Source of the DNA: Methanosarcina barkeri str. Wiesmoor
Lineage (GTDB): Archaea > Halobacteriota > Methanosarcinia > Methanosarcinales > Methanosarcinaceae
Direction of reading: 5' to 3'
DNA length: 64,000 bases
Assembly (NCBI RefSeq): GCF_000969985.1
Contig: NZ_CP009526.1
Coordinates: forward strand, 3,720,001-3,784,000
Of this stretch, positions 33,723 to 44,266 are shown one piece after another. Under the pieces are notes generated by a model. It ran no database searches. It was not told where the DNA came from and saw nothing but the letters and a program-made list of their open reading frames with translations. Position 1 is the first letter of the stretch. Every line of letters begins with the position of its first letter. Position numbers and translations under genes: made by a program.

Positions 33723-33841
33723 TTCCCTCATTGAAAAACATTAGTGGTAAATTTATGTATGTATTTATATAATTACTGTGGACAATTATTCAAAATTTTC
33801 TTTCGTATGTATAATTTGGGTAAAATCAAGATGTGGTAGAG

Positions 33842-34993
33842 ATGAGTACTGGAATAAAAAATCTTGTCCGTACACTGGACAGTGTGGACTTCTTAAAAAT
33901 GGATCGACGCACTTTCATGAAAGCGTTAGGTGCAATGGGTGCAGCTACATTCCTAGGCACATACAAGACTGAGATTGTAAGTGCGCTTGAATTTGCAGAG
34001 ACCAAGCTTCTTTGGATCCACGGCTCCGAATGTACCGGCTGTTCTGAATCGGTGTTAAACGCAGGCAATCCTGACCTTGTACAGGCACTACAAAAGCTTA
34101 ACGTCAATCTTGCTTACCATGAGACTCTTTGTGCACAGCAGGGAATCTGGAATGATGGTGAGCTTGTAAACACCTCCGAACTTAACTCTGAAATTCTCCA
34201 AGAAGATATTTATAAAGAAGGCAATTATATCCTGGTCGTTGAAGGCTCAATTCCTAACGGTCCAGATGGTTCAGGACGCTACCTGGTTATTGGAAACAAA
34301 CCTTTCAAGCAAACCCTTGGAGAAGCTGCAAAGAATGCTACTGCTGTCATTGCAGTCGGTGCCTGTGCTGCATACGGAGGAATTACCTCTGCAGACAGTG
34401 ATATTGCCAAGGATACGGATTACAGGGGAGTAGCTTTTGCAAAGGATGATTCTTCAAAGGGCATGCTTCAGGAACTTGGTATCGATAAGCCAGTAATCAA
34501 TATTCCTGGTTGCCCTGCTCACCCTGATTGGGTCCTTCTTACCCTGGGCGCAGTAATTCTTGGAAAGATCAAGATCCCTGATGATCTTGATAGCCTTCTA
34601 GACGACTACGGCAGACCAAAGGTCTTCTTCCCTCCAGACCATACAGTGCACGAAAACTGTCCACGCCGCGGATACTATGACCGCGGAGAATTCGATGAGC
34701 AGGTAGGTGGAGAAAAGTGCCTGTGGAAATTAGGCTGTAAAGCTCCCTATTCTCACGCAGACTGTGGAATTCGCAGATGGAATGGTTCAGTAAGTATGTG
34801 TACCCAGGCAGGCGGCCCCTGTATTGCCTGTGTCGAGCCGGGTTTCCCAGACACTTCAAGGCCCCTGTATGTTGAACGTGAAGATATAGGAGTTGCCGGA
34901 ACAAACATTGACACAGTAGCCAAAGTTGCAGTAGGAGCAGCTGCTGTTGCTGCAGGCGTACATGCTGTTAGGAGAATGGGAAAAGGAGAGTGA
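33842..34993 (+). CDS. vhtG: Methanophenazine-reducing [NiFe] hydrogenase small subunit VhtG
   Basis: About 383 residues (GTG 33833 is an in-frame alternative start). A twin-arginine signal DRRTFMK (residues 21-27) directs the folded dimer across the membrane. Proximal cluster ligands are Cys64 and Cys67 in SECTGCSE, Cys174 (GACAAYGG) and Cys224 (GCPAHPDW). The distal His/Cys motif and medial cluster lie in HENCPRRGYYDRGEF, KCLWKLGCK and CTQAGGPCIACVEPGF. A C-terminal hydrophobic helix (VAVGAAAVAAGVHAV) anchors it. It relays electrons from VhtA to cytochrome b VhtC. First gene of vhtGACD. Confidence 0.96.
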   Translation: MSTGIKNLVRTLDSVDFLKMDRRTFMKALGAMGAATFLGTYKTEIVSALEFAETKLLWIHGSECTGCSESVLNAGNPDLVQALQKLNVNLAYHETLCAQQGIWNDGELVNTSELNSEILQEDIYKEGNYILVVEGSIPNGPDGSGRYLVIGNKPFKQTLGEAAKNATAVIAVGACAAYGGITSADSDIAKDTDYRGVAFAKDDSSKGMLQELGIDKPVINIPGCPAHPDWVLLTLGAVILGKIKIPDDLDSLLDDYGRPKVFFPPDHTVHENCPRRGYYDRGEFDEQVGGEKCLWKLGCKAPYSHADCGIRRWNGSVSMCTQAGGPCIACVEPGFPDTSRPLYVEREDIGVAGTNIDTVAKVAVGAAAVAAGVHAVRRMGKGE

Positions 34994-34997
34994 GTGA

Positions 34998-36776
<1,779 letters not shown>

Positions 36777-36800
36777 GTATGTACAAGGAGATGACCCTCA

Positions 36801-37574
36801 ATGAAATCCAAAGACAACCGGTCAATGGTTGTTGAGCGTTATACCGTAACTGACAGAATAGCTCATACCGTCCACGCTATTGCAATGTTAGTGCTCATCA
36901 TTACCGGGTTAAAGATCTATACTGGGTGGGACTTCATGAGTTTCCATACAGCCCGCGGTCTTCACATGATAGCGGTTCCGTTCCTGCTTGCAGTGAACTG
37001 GATCCTTATCCCTTACAACATTCTCTCCGAAGGCCATGGGTTTATGGGAAAAATTTCCCACTTTAAGGACCATTATATTTTTGGTCCTAAGGATGCAGCT
37101 CGCATGGGCGGTATAATTGGCAACTTCTTCAGGAAAGGCAGATATCCTGCATTCAGTATCTATGATGAGACTACTGGCCACTACAAGACCAAACTTCATC
37201 CCTTAATGAAGATCCTGATCGTGCTTGAAGGTACAGCTCTTTTCTTTATTGCAGTATCAGGTGTTGTGCTTTACAGTCTCAACTGGTCACTTTTCGGCCT
37301 CCCTATAGCCTCATGGATCCTGTCTATAACAGGCTTTATTTCACCTATATTCAACCTGTCTGCCCTGCAGTTCCTCAGGTTACTTCACCTGCTGTTGACC
37401 TACTGGTTTGTTTTTGAACTGGTAGTCCATGTGGGTATTCTGGAGTTTGACCCTCATGTCTGGAAGTACTACAAAGCTATCTTCCTGACAGGAAAAGAGG
37501 ATCTTGCAGATACTCATTACTCTGAGGTCGTCACAGCTAAAACAAAGTATCTTCCTACAGAGGAAAGGCCCTGA
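36801..37574 (+). CDS. vhtC: Hydrogenase b-type cytochrome subunit VhtC
   Basis: A 257-residue di-haem cytochrome b with about four or five helices. Haem-ligand histidines are expected in [20 protein letters not shown] (helix 1), [16 protein letters not shown] and [22 protein letters not shown] (last helix). It takes electrons from VhtG and reduces methanophenazine, contributing to the proton gradient. AAGGAGATG lies upstream of ATG 36801, 24 bases past vhtA. Confidence 0.95.
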
Positions 37575-37673
37575 AGATTTCTTAACGAAAAATAAAATGT
37601 CGAATTTAAGGTAGTACAGGCATGTTGAAAAACCTGTACACCTTTTTAACTCCTTTTTTGTTTGAGTGAAAAT

Positions 37674-38159
37674 ATGTCTATACTAAATGCTCCTGTACGC
37701 ATCCTTGGCTGCGGAAGCCCGTTAATGGGAAACGATGGTGTTGGCCTCAAAGTCATTGAGGCTCTTCAAGAGTCCGAACTTAAAGACCTCAAAGATATCG
37801 ATATCGTGGATGCAGGGGTCTGTGGGCTTGACCTTCTAAATCTTCTCGACGGCGCCAGGAAAGTCATAATAGTTGATGCAATTCTGGCTAACAGTCCCCC
37901 AGGTTCAGTACACCGTATAGATGGGAAGGACTTACTGGATGGTGTCGAATTTCATCCCCTGGTTTCAGTACACGACCTGACAATTACAGATGTATTGAAA
38001 ATAGGAGAACAGGTTCAAGAGCTTCCGGAAATCGTGGTCATCGGAATCGAAATCGGATCTATTGTCACGGAAGCTACGCAGGAAATCAGTCCGGATGTTC
38101 TTAATGGTGTGGATAAAGCCATAAAGCTAATCAGGGAAGAGGTTTTTTCCTCACTTTAA
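37674..38159 (+). CDS. vhtD: Hydrogenase maturation endopeptidase VhtD
   Basis: A 161-residue HybD/HyaD-type protease. The start ATG 37674 is preferred over in-frame TTG 37662. Motifs: GCGSPLMGNDGVG (Glu-equivalent replaced by the usual N-D-G-V-G Asp) near residues 11-23, DAGVCGLDLL, and the third nickel-sensing ligand His in LVSVHDLTI. It cuts the C-terminal peptide of the large subunit once nickel is in place. It is the only such protease in the window and may process both large subunits. Its stop codon lies within a 59-bp duplicated segment. Confidence 0.93.
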   Translation: MSILNAPVRILGCGSPLMGNDGVGLKVIEALQESELKDLKDIDIVDAGVCGLDLLNLLDGARKVIIVDAILANSPPGSVHRIDGKDLLDGVEFHPLVSVHDLTITDVLKIGEQVQELPEIVVIGIEIGSIVTEATQEISPDVLNGVDKAIKLIREEVFSSL

Positions 38160-40234: not shown

Positions 40235-40434
40235 TTTTTAGAAAAATTATATTTATTAAATGATTTAAATTTAATTTAAACAATCTCCTACTGTTGCAAA
40301 GTAAAGGAGTTACTTGTGAAGTGGTTATTGAAGGTTTGATAGTCTTTGATATATATGTGATATTCTTTAATATATTGGATTCTATTTTTTTATATACCAT
40401 TTTTTATATATCTTTATATGAAATTATTAGTAAC

Positions 40435-41670
40435 ATGGGGGGAAGTAGAACGGATAATGACGACTTACTTGAAAAGTTTAAAAATCTCGATTTCATGAAA
40501 ATGGATCGTCGGACCTTTATAAAGGCTGTTGGGGTATTAGGGGCTTCATTGTTTTTACAAACGTATAAAAACGATCTAGCAAAAGCTCTCGAGTTTTCGG
40601 AAACTAAAGTTGTATGGCTTCATGGAGTAATGGATAGTGGCTGTACCATATCAATGCTGGACGGGGGCTCTCCTGATATCATAGAATTCCTTCAGGAATA
40701 TAATCTCAAGCTTCTCTATCATGAAGTTTTAATGATGCAGCAGGGAATTTTCGTAGATGGAAAGCTCGCAAATACCAGTGATCTTAATTCTGAGATTGTG
40801 CTGGATGATATCTTGGAAAAGGAAAAAGGTTACGTTCTAGTCTCCGAAGGAGCGATTTCGAACGGCCCTGAAGGTTCCGGGAAATATCTCATGTTGGGAG
40901 GAAGGACCTATAAAGAGATTTACGCAAAAGCTGCTAAAAATGCTTTAGCGATTGTTGCAATTGGAAATTGTGCGACTAATGGTGGTGTGAACTCTGCTAA
41001 GAGTGATATAGTTGAACTTATGGATCCTCGTGGGGTTGCTTTTACTATGGAAGATGCTTCAAAAGGGATTTTAGATCTTCTTGGCATCGAAAAACCTGTA
41101 ATTAATCTTACTGGTTGCCCTACTCATCCAGACTGGGTTTTTTTGACAATAGGCGCAGTTGTTTTGGGAAAGATAAAGATACCTGATGATTTGCCTTATG
41201 TACTGGATCACTGGAAACGTCCAAAGGTTTTCTTCCCGCCTGACCATGTCATTCATGATAACTGTTCTCGTCGTGGATACTATGACCGTGGAGAATTTGA
41301 GCTGACAGTAGGTGGACCGAAGTGCCTCTGGAAACTGGGGTGCAAGGGGCCTTATACTCATGCAGACTGTGCTACTCGCAACTGGAATGGTCATCTTAAT
41401 TACTGTCCTCAGGCGGGTTCTCCCTGTATTGGCTGCGTTCAGCCAGGCTTCCCGGATAGCACCAGGCCTTTTTTCGTGGAATTTGAGAAAACAGGAATTG
41501 TAGGTACGAATATCACTACTATAGCAGGCGTGGCAATAGGAGGCGCGCTACTTGCTGCAGGGGCTCATGCTGTCAGGAGAACAGCCATGAAAAGACCTGA
41601 GGACGAGGGAGGCCTTGCCGAAGAAAGCACTCCTGAGGAAATCGAAGAAGAAACAGGAGGTGAAAAATAA
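40435..41670 (+). CDS. vhxG: [NiFe] hydrogenase small subunit of the second operon (VhxG-like), proximal-cluster Cys missing
   Basis: A 411-residue homologue of VhtG from ATG 40435; the frame is open to 40294 but the extra residues are hydrophobic and unlike VhtG. The Tat motif DRRTFIK (residues 24-30) is kept. Where VhtG has SECTGCSE this protein has VMDSGCTI: the Glu and first cluster Cys are replaced by Met66 and Asp67, and only Cys70 remains. The other ligands persist (GNCATNGG, GCPTHPDW, HDNCSRRGYYDRGEF, KCLWKLGCK, CPQAGSPCIGC). The tail has an acidic extension (PEDEGGLAEEST...) not seen in VhtG. Electron transfer from the active site may be altered. Confidence 0.9.
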   Translation: MGGSRTDNDDLLEKFKNLDFMKMDRRTFIKAVGVLGASLFLQTYKNDLAKALEFSETKVVWLHGVMDSGCTISMLDGGSPDIIEFLQEYNLKLLYHEVLMMQQGIFVDGKLANTSDLNSEIVLDDILEKEKGYVLVSEGAISNGPEGSGKYLMLGGRTYKEIYAKAAKNALAIVAIGNCATNGGVNSAKSDIVELMDPRGVAFTMEDASKGILDLLGIEKPVINLTGCPTHPDWVFLTIGAVVLGKIKIPDDLPYVLDHWKRPKVFFPPDHVIHDNCSRRGYYDRGEFELTVGGPKCLWKLGCKGPYTHADCATRNWNGHLNYCPQAGSPCIGCVQPGFPDSTRPFFVEFEKTGIVGTNITTIAGVAIGGALLAAGAHAVRRTAMKRPEDEGGLAEESTPEEIEEETGGEK

Positions 41671-43460
41671 TGGTACAGGTTACTGTTGATCCTCTTACGA
41701 GAATTGAAGGACACTACAGGATCAATACCGAAGTCAATGAGGAAGGCGTAATTACTGATGCCCAGAGTAATGGCTTGCAGTTAAGGGGTTTTGAACGTCT
41801 CTTACAGCACCAGGATCCTAGGGATGCATCACTTCTGTCCCAGAGGATTTGTGGTGTTTGTCCTGTTAGCCACGGGATAGCTGCAGCAAATGCCCTGGAT
41901 GACCTCTTCGGGGTTGCAGGTGAGGTTCCAATAGACGGTCTTCTAATGCGAAATGTCCACCAGGCTCTGAACTTCATAGCCAGCCATGCAGCACATATCT
42001 ATCTTCTTTGGGGTCCTGACCTTGCAAACCCGGCTTACCGTGATATCCTGGCAAAATACGGGGATGTTGGAAATGCAGTCTGGAAAGAACTTCAGGGGCG
42101 TTTTGCGCCTTTGATTTATCAGCTTGACGGCACCAGTTATCCGGCTGGCTCGTCTTATCTAGGCTCTATAGTGGAATTTCGCCGCTTGCACGAAGCTATT
42201 TCTTTAATAGCTAGCAAGATGCCTCATCCGGTTCTTCAGCATGTTGGAGGTGTAGTTTATTCTCCGACGGTTGCTGATATCGGGCAAATTTTAAGCTATA
42301 TCACGAAAACGATGGAGTTCGTTGAAGCATTTACTCTTGGAGTCTCTCCCGATATCTGGATTGAAAATACTTATAGAGCTTCTTCTCCTCAAAAGGCTGC
42401 TAATTTCGTTCTTAATCACCTGCAAGAACTTCTGAATAAATCCCTTGACAACAAGGACTTCTCACACTCGGCTGGTTGGGGAGATGTCCCTCTCTTTGCA
42501 GCTTTCGGCTCGGAGCTGATAGGGGAAAAACTTCTCGGTCTGCCTATCAGTATGAAAATGGATCTTGCAGGGACTTACAAAGATCCCGGTAAGATCGGTT
42601 TTCTTTCTTACGGAGTTTTCTTTAAGCCCGAGAACGGCAATGGGTATGACCCAACGAGTCCTGCGGACAGCAGAGTTATTTCTTCCGGCTATATGAATGG
42701 ATATTTCAAGCTTGAAAAATTCGACTACAAGAAGATCTCAGAAAGTATCAACCACTCTTTTTACATTGACGACGTAAAAGATCGTCCTCCATGGAACGGG
42801 GTTACGGTTCCGGAAGGAAACCCTGAAAATATCGATTATACAAAAGGATCAAAGAGTCGGTATTCCTGGACAAAAGCTCCTCATTATGATGGAATTCCAT
42901 GTGAGGTTGGGCCCCTTGCTCGTATGATAATAATGGGGGAGCCTCTTGTTACGGGATTGGTAAAAACTTTTCAAGATAACGGCTACTATCCTGTCAATAA
43001 CTATACCCGCATGATTGCAAGGATGCAGGAAATTCTTGTAGTGGTTCCAGAACTTACGAAATGGCTCACACAGGATATTCAGGCAGGCGGAAAGGTTGCT
43101 GTACATACCGATCTTTCTATGGCAAAGAGTTCCACAGGAATGGGTTTATGGGAAGCTCCGCGAGGGGCACTGGGACACTGGGTTGCTACAGGGCCGGATT
43201 CTATGGTAACTCTTTACCAGGCTGTAGTCCCAAGTACCTGGAACCTTGCTCCCAGGAATTCACAGGAGATTCCAAGTCCTGTTGAACAGGCTCTCATAGG
43301 TACCAAAATTTCCGCTGCCGAAAATGCACTTGGAGTGGATTATTCCAATCCTCTTGGAATCCTGCACACAGCTCGCTCTTACGATCCCTGTCTGGCATGT
43401 GCAGTTCATACAATTGATAAAACCGGAAAGCACCCGGATTATATCATCAAGGTACTTTGA
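41670..43460 (+). CDS. vhxA: [NiFe] hydrogenase large subunit of the second operon (VhxA-like)
   Basis: A 596-residue homologue of VhtA. All four Ni/Fe cysteines are present: [11 protein letters not shown] (Cys61, Cys64) and DPCLACAVH (Cys574, Cys577). A 16-residue peptide after His580 would need proteolytic removal, yet the operon has no protease gene, so VhtD would have to act on it. The ATG overlaps the vhxG stop by one base and is preceded by GGAGGTG. Sequence is clearly diverged from VhtA throughout, so this is an old duplication, not a recent copy. Confidence 0.93.
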
Positions 43461-43474
43461 AGGAGGTTAGAAGT

Positions 43475-44266
43475 ATGGTACAATCTGCTCAAACATCCGC
43501 CTCTACAAGAATAGTTGTTGAACGTTATACATGGCTTGAGAGAGTTACTCATTTAGTGCATCTTATTGCCATGTTTGTCCTTCTGATTACAGGATTCAAA
43601 ATTTACTTTGGTTGGGAGTTCATGGCTTTTCAAACAGCCCGAGCCTGGCATACGATTGCTGTGCCTTTTTTCCTGGTTGCAAACTGGATTCTGGTCCCAT
43701 ACAACCTTTTTTCCTGCAAAGAAGAAAGATGCAGTGTCAGAGACAGAATAGTGCATTTTAAGGACTCTTACTTTTTCGGAAAAGATGATGCAGAACGTCT
43801 CATTGGCATAATAAAGAATTTTTTTGGAAAAGGTAGGTACCCGGCATTTAGTATCTATGATGAAACTACTGGTCACTACAAGACGAAACTCCATCCTGTG
43901 ATGAAGATACTGATTGTCCTTGAGAGTATAGCAATTGTCATTGTAGCAATTACAGGAGTAGTGCTTTACAACCTCGACTGGTCTCCTTTTGGAATTCCCA
44001 TTGCGTCATGGATACTTTCCGTAACCTGGTATTTTGCGTCCTTTTTCGATGTCAATGCTTTAGGGTTACTTCGCTTATTACATCTGCTTGCAGCTTACTG
44101 GTTTGTCTTTGAACTTGTGGTTCATGTAGGAATTATTGAATTTGATCCATACGCATGGAAATATCACAAGGCAATTTTTTGGTCAGGAAAAGAAGATCTT
44201 TCAGACAGGCACTTTGTCAAAGTAATTGATGAAGACGAACAAAAAAAAGTAACGGGAGAGCACTGA
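43475..44266 (+). CDS. vhxC: Hydrogenase b-type cytochrome of the second operon (VhxC-like)
   Basis: A 263-residue homologue of VhtC. ATG 43475 is chosen because GGAGG lies 9 bases upstream; an in-frame TTG at 43457 overlaps vhxA. Haem-ligand helices [34 protein letters not shown] and [22 protein letters not shown] match VhtC, and the [19 protein letters not shown] loop is nearly identical. A ten-residue insertion ([11 protein letters not shown]) with two cysteines is specific to this copy. No vhtD-like gene follows. Confidence 0.92.

Follow-up and report, generated by a model that had tools for sequence, protein, structure and literature searches.

The closest described relatives of the locus reported here are the group 1 methanophenazine hydrogenases VhtGAC/VhoGAC. 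Their paralog Vhx has so far been dismissed as a defunct duplicate of Vht. In M. acetivorans, Vhx has been described with all active-site residues (PMC13224831). M. barkeri Vhx is regarded as unable to form an active enzyme (PMC6030560), and activity was reported absent in a strain with only fre and vhx left (PMC13224831). More distant [NiFe] hydrogenases provide precedents for an Asp at the proximal cluster. Asp60 of FrhG, from the F420-reducing hydrogenase of Methanothermobacter marburgensis, is a proximal-cluster ligand (3zfs/4omf; PMC3930138, PMC3591093), and group 1h enzymes carry a specific Asp on this cluster (PMC7174314).

We analyzed a 64,000-nucleotide stretch of the Methanosarcina barkeri str. 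Wiesmoor genome (the window; contig NZ_CP009526.1, positions 3,720,001 to 3,784,000). It contains two paralogous methanophenazine-type [NiFe] hydrogenase operons, and all features given below lie on the + strand. The first operon, vhtGACD (33833-38159), is intact and includes the gene of the maturation protease VhtD. The second, vhxGAC (40435-44266), comprises vhxG (40435-41670), encoding a [NiFe] small subunit with the Pfam domains Oxidored_q6 and NiFe_hyd_SSU_C, vhxA (41670-43460), encoding the large subunit with RICGVCP, DPCLACAVH and the C-terminal extension kept, and vhxC (43457-44266), encoding a cytochrome b subunit whose probable start lies within the open reading frame. VhxG has the twin-arginine motif MDRRTFIKA (Tat was assigned by motif, and the Pfam TAT model scored below threshold) and a hydrophobic C-terminal tail as membrane anchor. 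It scores below the TIGR00391 cut-off (167 vs 179.5 bits). No vhxD follows vhxC at this locus or at the relatives' loci, and the sole protease gene is vhtD (37662-38159). Three genomes, G096 (L070), G007 (L072) and G008 (L073), have three tandem hydrogenase operons, with an extra small/large subunit pair 5' of vhtGACD-vhxGAC; the extra small subunit matches only to approximately residue 350 and may be without a C-terminal anchor.

The two small subunits differ at the proximal-cluster motif. VhtG (33833-34993) reads HGSECTGCSES. At the equivalent site, positions 40624-40650 of the window read GGA GTA ATG GAT AGT GGC TGT ACC ATA, which, with ATG 40435 as codon 1, encode G64 V65 M66 D67 S68 G69 C70 T71 I72. 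We aligned 70 Vht and Vhx small subunits with MAFFT and, using phmmer, aligned VhxG to the solved NiFeSe hydrogenase 4kl8 (GQGCTGCSVS). Both alignments place D67 (GAT, 40633-40635) in the column of the first Cys of the proximal CxxC. The CxxC...C...C motif of the Vht/Vho type, with four Cys, is therefore broken at its first Cys, which is Asp, and within V65-C70 (40627-40644) CTGC has become DSGC. The codons and both alignments confirm the original prediction of VMDSGC in place of SECTGC. The two other proximal-cluster Cys are present, C179 at 40969-40971 (GNCATNGG) and C228 at 41116-41118 (TGCPTHP), within the stretch 40969-41118. All ten remaining Cys of VhxG (70, 179, 228, 277, 297, 303, 312, 324, 331 and 334) align with Vht Cys and are invariant across the 18 Asp-type proteins, as are RICGVCP and DPCxxC of VhxA across the Asp-type set, so the predicted retention of the other cluster ligands and of the NiFe cysteines also held. 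Medial and distal cluster ligands, NiFe ligands and the large-subunit extension of the Vht/Vho type are all present in Vhx. A shifted Cys acting as replacement ligand was ruled out, as the alignments with Vht and within the Asp-type set contained no gained or substitute Cys.

Two neighboring changes accompany the Cys to Asp replacement in Asp-type Vhx: the preceding Glu has become Met and the following Thr has become Ser. The Glu beside the first Cys had been described as conserved. This does not hold generally, because NiFeSe enzymes and G083 have Gly at this position, and another genus of the family has Gln. The second Glu of the Vht motif is also gone in Vhx (CSE to CSI); Cys-type Vhx is without it too, so its loss seems older than that of the Cys. 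We considered whether a compensated double frameshift had converted GAA TGT to ATG GAT and rejected this, as a simulated null equaled its score in 49% of cases. A literature text search combining vhxG and cysteine returned no match (Guss et al. 2009 and Kulkarni et al. 2009 were outside its reach).

We searched 112 genomes of the family and fetched the loci, recovering 33 Vhx small subunits (23 from core Methanosarcina and 10 deeper), mostly encoded directly downstream of vhtGACD. VMDSGC was exact in 18 of the 23 core orthologs, each from a different species. Sequencing error or chance was ruled out, given that the same motif occurs in proteins with 73-97% identity from both isolates and MAGs. 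The other five core orthologs keep the Cys as [VA][EG]CTGC, and one of them is presumably that of M. acetivorans C2A. The Cys in that ortholog agrees with the published description of M. acetivorans Vhx as complete in its active-site residues (PMC13224831). The alignment check of Asp67 across Methanosarcina, as suggested by the original prediction, was thus only partly favorable: Asp is present in 18 of 23 core orthologs, and Cys itself, the outcome named as unfavorable, is present in five close ones, apparently including M. acetivorans. The other unfavorable outcome, a shifted Cys, was found in none. Deeper Vhx proteins read GECTGC, with the Cys kept in 10 out of 10. Of 32 further small-subunit loci fetched from the family, nearly all have CTGC (two could not be read, being truncated or too divergent). 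Among VhtG proteins, 35 of 37 keep the first proximal Cys. The two others have Ser at this position, L081 of G090 and L083 of G093 (SESTGC and AESTGC, with codons TCC and AGC). No other Vht-type small subunit was found in either genome, both of which are incomplete, and the relative G091 keeps Cys.

We assessed constraint on the vhx genes by pairwise dN/dS (Nei-Gojobori) within the Asp-type groups, for which median dS was 0.43-1.3. Median dN/dS of Asp-type vhxG was 0.097 and 0.085 at dS 0.43 and 0.95, and values were about 0.10 for vhxA and 0.10-0.18 for vhxC, approximately equal to those of vht in the same genomes. The Asp-type proteins show no variation at residues 61-70 of VhxG. Among the positions conserved in Vht, only residues 66-68 cleanly split Asp-type from Cys-type proteins of the inner clade. 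Pseudogene hallmarks such as relaxed constraint and broken frames are absent, and the vhx frames are open in nearly all genomes. Because dN/dS is about 0.09-0.18 and similar to that of vht, we conclude that Asp-type vhxGAC is under strong purifying selection and is not a decaying relic. The earlier argument against simple decay, drawn from the intact frames of the three genes, is borne out by the vhxG dN/dS of 0.09-0.10. It is accordingly quite improbable that vhx is a silenced relic heading to pseudogene status, with the Cys loss among its first lesions. Such a relic would fit the promoter that is silent in reporters (PMC11409679), the ACG in place of a start ATG, the missing vhxD and the split frames in two MAG records, those of vhxG and vhxA in G101 (L066) and of vhxC in G076 (L046). 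These frames may be true lesions or assembly errors, the MAGs being 60% and 87% complete. Against decay stand dN/dS values of about 0.1 for vhxG and vhxA at dS up to 0.95 and a motif that is invariant in 18 species.

The start of vhxG is unusual. The open reading frame opens at ATG 40435, which is in frame five codons 5' of an ACG in this genome and in a few others. This ACG, codon 6 (40450-40452), lies 19 codons 5' of the twin-arginine motif. Codon 6 is ATG in eight deeper and four inner Vhx genes, GTG in one inner gene and ACG in 18 of the 23 inner ones (orthologue loci L044-L069; the count includes G087 and G089, and also G100, which alone of these three has an in-frame duplication there). 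By comparison, none of the 28 conserved Thr columns of vhxGAC keeps one codon across species; the codons around the ACG are also unusually constant. A G-rich, Shine-Dalgarno-like run (GGGGGGA, 40437-40443) lies 6 bases 5' of the ACG and is kept in inner-clade vhxG by visual comparison. Judging from these patterns, ACG 40450 is probably a conserved near-cognate start of vhxG, and a more probable one than ATG 40435. Upstream, a block at 40360-40434 (CTTTAATATATTGGATTC ... TTTTTATATATCTTTATAT), recognizably conserved across core Methanosarcina by visual comparison, is probably the vhxG promoter. In published work the promoter and ribosome-binding region of M. barkeri vhxG had no recognizable RBS and drove no expression of a reporter in M. 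acetivorans, and a strong RBS restored weak expression from this region (PMC11409679). An ACG start would explain the near-silent expression and is consistent with these reporter data.

We tentatively favor, with confidence just short of even, the reading that Vhx is a weakly translated but selected VhtGAC paralog with an Asp-ligated proximal [4Fe-4S] cluster, its relay kept and its potential changed. VhxGAC would be a duplicate of the methanophenazine-reducing VhtGAC that core Methanosarcina kept at low translation. Asp67 would bind one iron of the proximal cluster through oxygen, together with Cys70, Cys179 and Cys228. The cluster, beside the NiFe site, would stay in the relay with an altered potential and electron-transfer rate. 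Vhx might then be an uptake hydrogenase that is slow or biased, is produced at low levels and is matured by VhtD and the maturation proteins of the host. An Asp in place of a Cys of the proximal CxxC is compatible with activity, given the precedents of FrhG (CTGD) and HofK of Cupriavidus necator (CDGD). We also counted in favor of Asp ligation the two VhtG proteins with Ser at the same first Cys, encoded by different Ser codons. Counted against it are the position of the precedent Asp ligands, which sit at the second Cys, the lack of vhxD in the operon, the failure of the vhxG promoter and RBS to drive a reporter (PMC11409679), and the two reports that M. barkeri Vhx is inactive; a silent promoter and a weak start could, however, account for this inactivity without any defect in the protein. 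The AlphaFold model, from 14 rows, had a mean pLDDT of 39.7, too low for use. Overall, instead of being a dead copy, vhx probably encodes a tuned enzyme.

The same inactivity reports (PMC6030560, PMC13224831) are what an intact but non-catalytic Vhx would produce. Its proximal cluster would be absent or a [3Fe-4S] cluster, electron transfer from the NiFe site would be broken, and the complex would be kept for another role, for instance as an assembly partner or a membrane scaffold, or in delivering cytochrome b or regulating Vht. The loss of one ligand and of the adjacent Glu and the conserved weak translation signals agree with this, and purifying selection fits a non-enzymatic role as well. 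A scaffold, however, has no need of the NiFe Cys and the distal and medial relay residues, which are invariant in 17-18 Asp-type proteins, and we consider a non-catalytic Vhx possible but on the unlikely side. Far less probable still is a hydrogen-sensing, regulatory Vhx, a role that had been raised in the original prediction and that low expression and an altered proximal site might suggest. Known hydrogen sensors adjoin a kinase and have no Tat signal, no membrane anchor and no C-terminal extension of the large subunit. Vhx, in contrast, still has its twin-arginine signal, its C-terminal anchor, the extension and cytochrome b, and a non-exhaustive look at the ORFs neighboring vhx recognized no kinase-like one.

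The Asp and Cys states are not simply distributed among the inner-clade genes. On trees computed without the motif columns, the state requires 2-3 changes. By a one-codon insertion approximately 13 codons 5' of the motif (ALE-LSET vs ALSGLPET), the inner clade falls into two groups, and Asp and Cys forms occur in both. The Asp67 codon is GAT or GAC. Ser68, never missing where Asp is present, is encoded by AGY in one Asp-type set and by TCN in another, and these codons are not interchangeable by one silent change. With both states in each insertion group and two Ser68 codon families, the gene sequences indicate that the Asp motif had more than one origin, or one origin followed by transfer or reversal through recombination. 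A single clade of Asp-type genes was tried as an alternative; the AU tests gave no clear answer on it (p 0.08 for VhxG and 0.03 for VhxA), and the insertion groups each mix Asp and Cys. VhtA of G078 (L048) is nearly identical to that of G102 (L067) and the VhxG proteins of these genomes fall in different clades, a mismatch suggesting that vhx alleles have passed from one Methanosarcina species to another.

A possible reason for selection of the Asp form is adaptation to Ech-dependent hydrogen cycling, with Rnf species without such cycling having kept Cys. This idea concerns why the Asp was selected and is compatible with Asp ligation. EchE was detected in 16 of 18 Asp-type but 2 of 9 Cys-type Methanosarcina genomes (Fisher p 0.001), and RnfC in 1 of 18 and 7 of 9, respectively (p 0.0003). 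These counts are non-independent, as the trees provide only 1-3 independent contrasts. There are also exceptions: G080, with Rnf and no Ech, is Asp-type, and G099, with Ech, is Cys-type (G095 is incomplete). The pattern suggests a link between Asp-type Vhx and hydrogen cycling, with independent contrasts too few for a claim, and we regard the adaptation itself as doubtful. Somewhat less likely again is the full combination, in which Methanosarcina evolved, once or perhaps repeatedly, a second hydrogenase of group 1 whose proximal cluster is 3Cys-1Asp, with Asp in first place, and which is initiated at ACG, is under-translated and is tuned to Ech-driven hydrogen cycling.

A paralog that had been set aside as dead thus proves to be under selection, and its start codon and its ligand are concrete, testable reasons why activity could have gone unseen. 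The sole consistent departure of Asp-type Vhx from its Cys-type sister is one ligand of the cluster beside the active site, together with two flanking residues. Vhx is therefore a natural experiment in the control of [NiFe] enzymes by the proximal cluster, and the Cys-containing sister of the M. acetivorans type allows a direct comparison. That Cys-type ortholog, from M. acetivorans and relatives, is 79% identical and occupies the same site downstream of vhtGACD, and it differs in keeping VECTGC. Vhx and VhtGAC/VhoGAC share the GAC gene order, small subunits about 60% identical, the NiFe, medial and distal ligands, the Tat signal, the C-terminal anchor and cytochrome b. Unlike VhtGAC/VhoGAC, Vhx has DSGC for CTGC, no second Glu, no protease gene of its own and a probable ACG start. 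Judged by its sequence, Vhx is a Vht paralog that departs from Vht in two features, the four-Cys proximal site and the dedicated protease gene, and keeps the rest. M. marburgensis FrhG resembles VhxG in having Asp for one Cys of the proximal CxxC, but its motif is CTGD, with Asp at the second Cys, and it is a group 3 enzyme whose relay differs; both FrhG-type proteins of this M. barkeri genome keep CTGC. HofK of C. necator (actinobacterial-type, group 1h, 5aa5), like VhxG, belongs to group 1 and has an Asp within its proximal CxxC. No Tat signal was seen in the HofK sequence, and its motif, CDGD, again has Asp at the second Cys. VhxG does not follow the pattern of FrhG and group 1h, and its Asp at the first Cys of the CxxC is, by alignment, a new position relative to the solved or published examples examined here.
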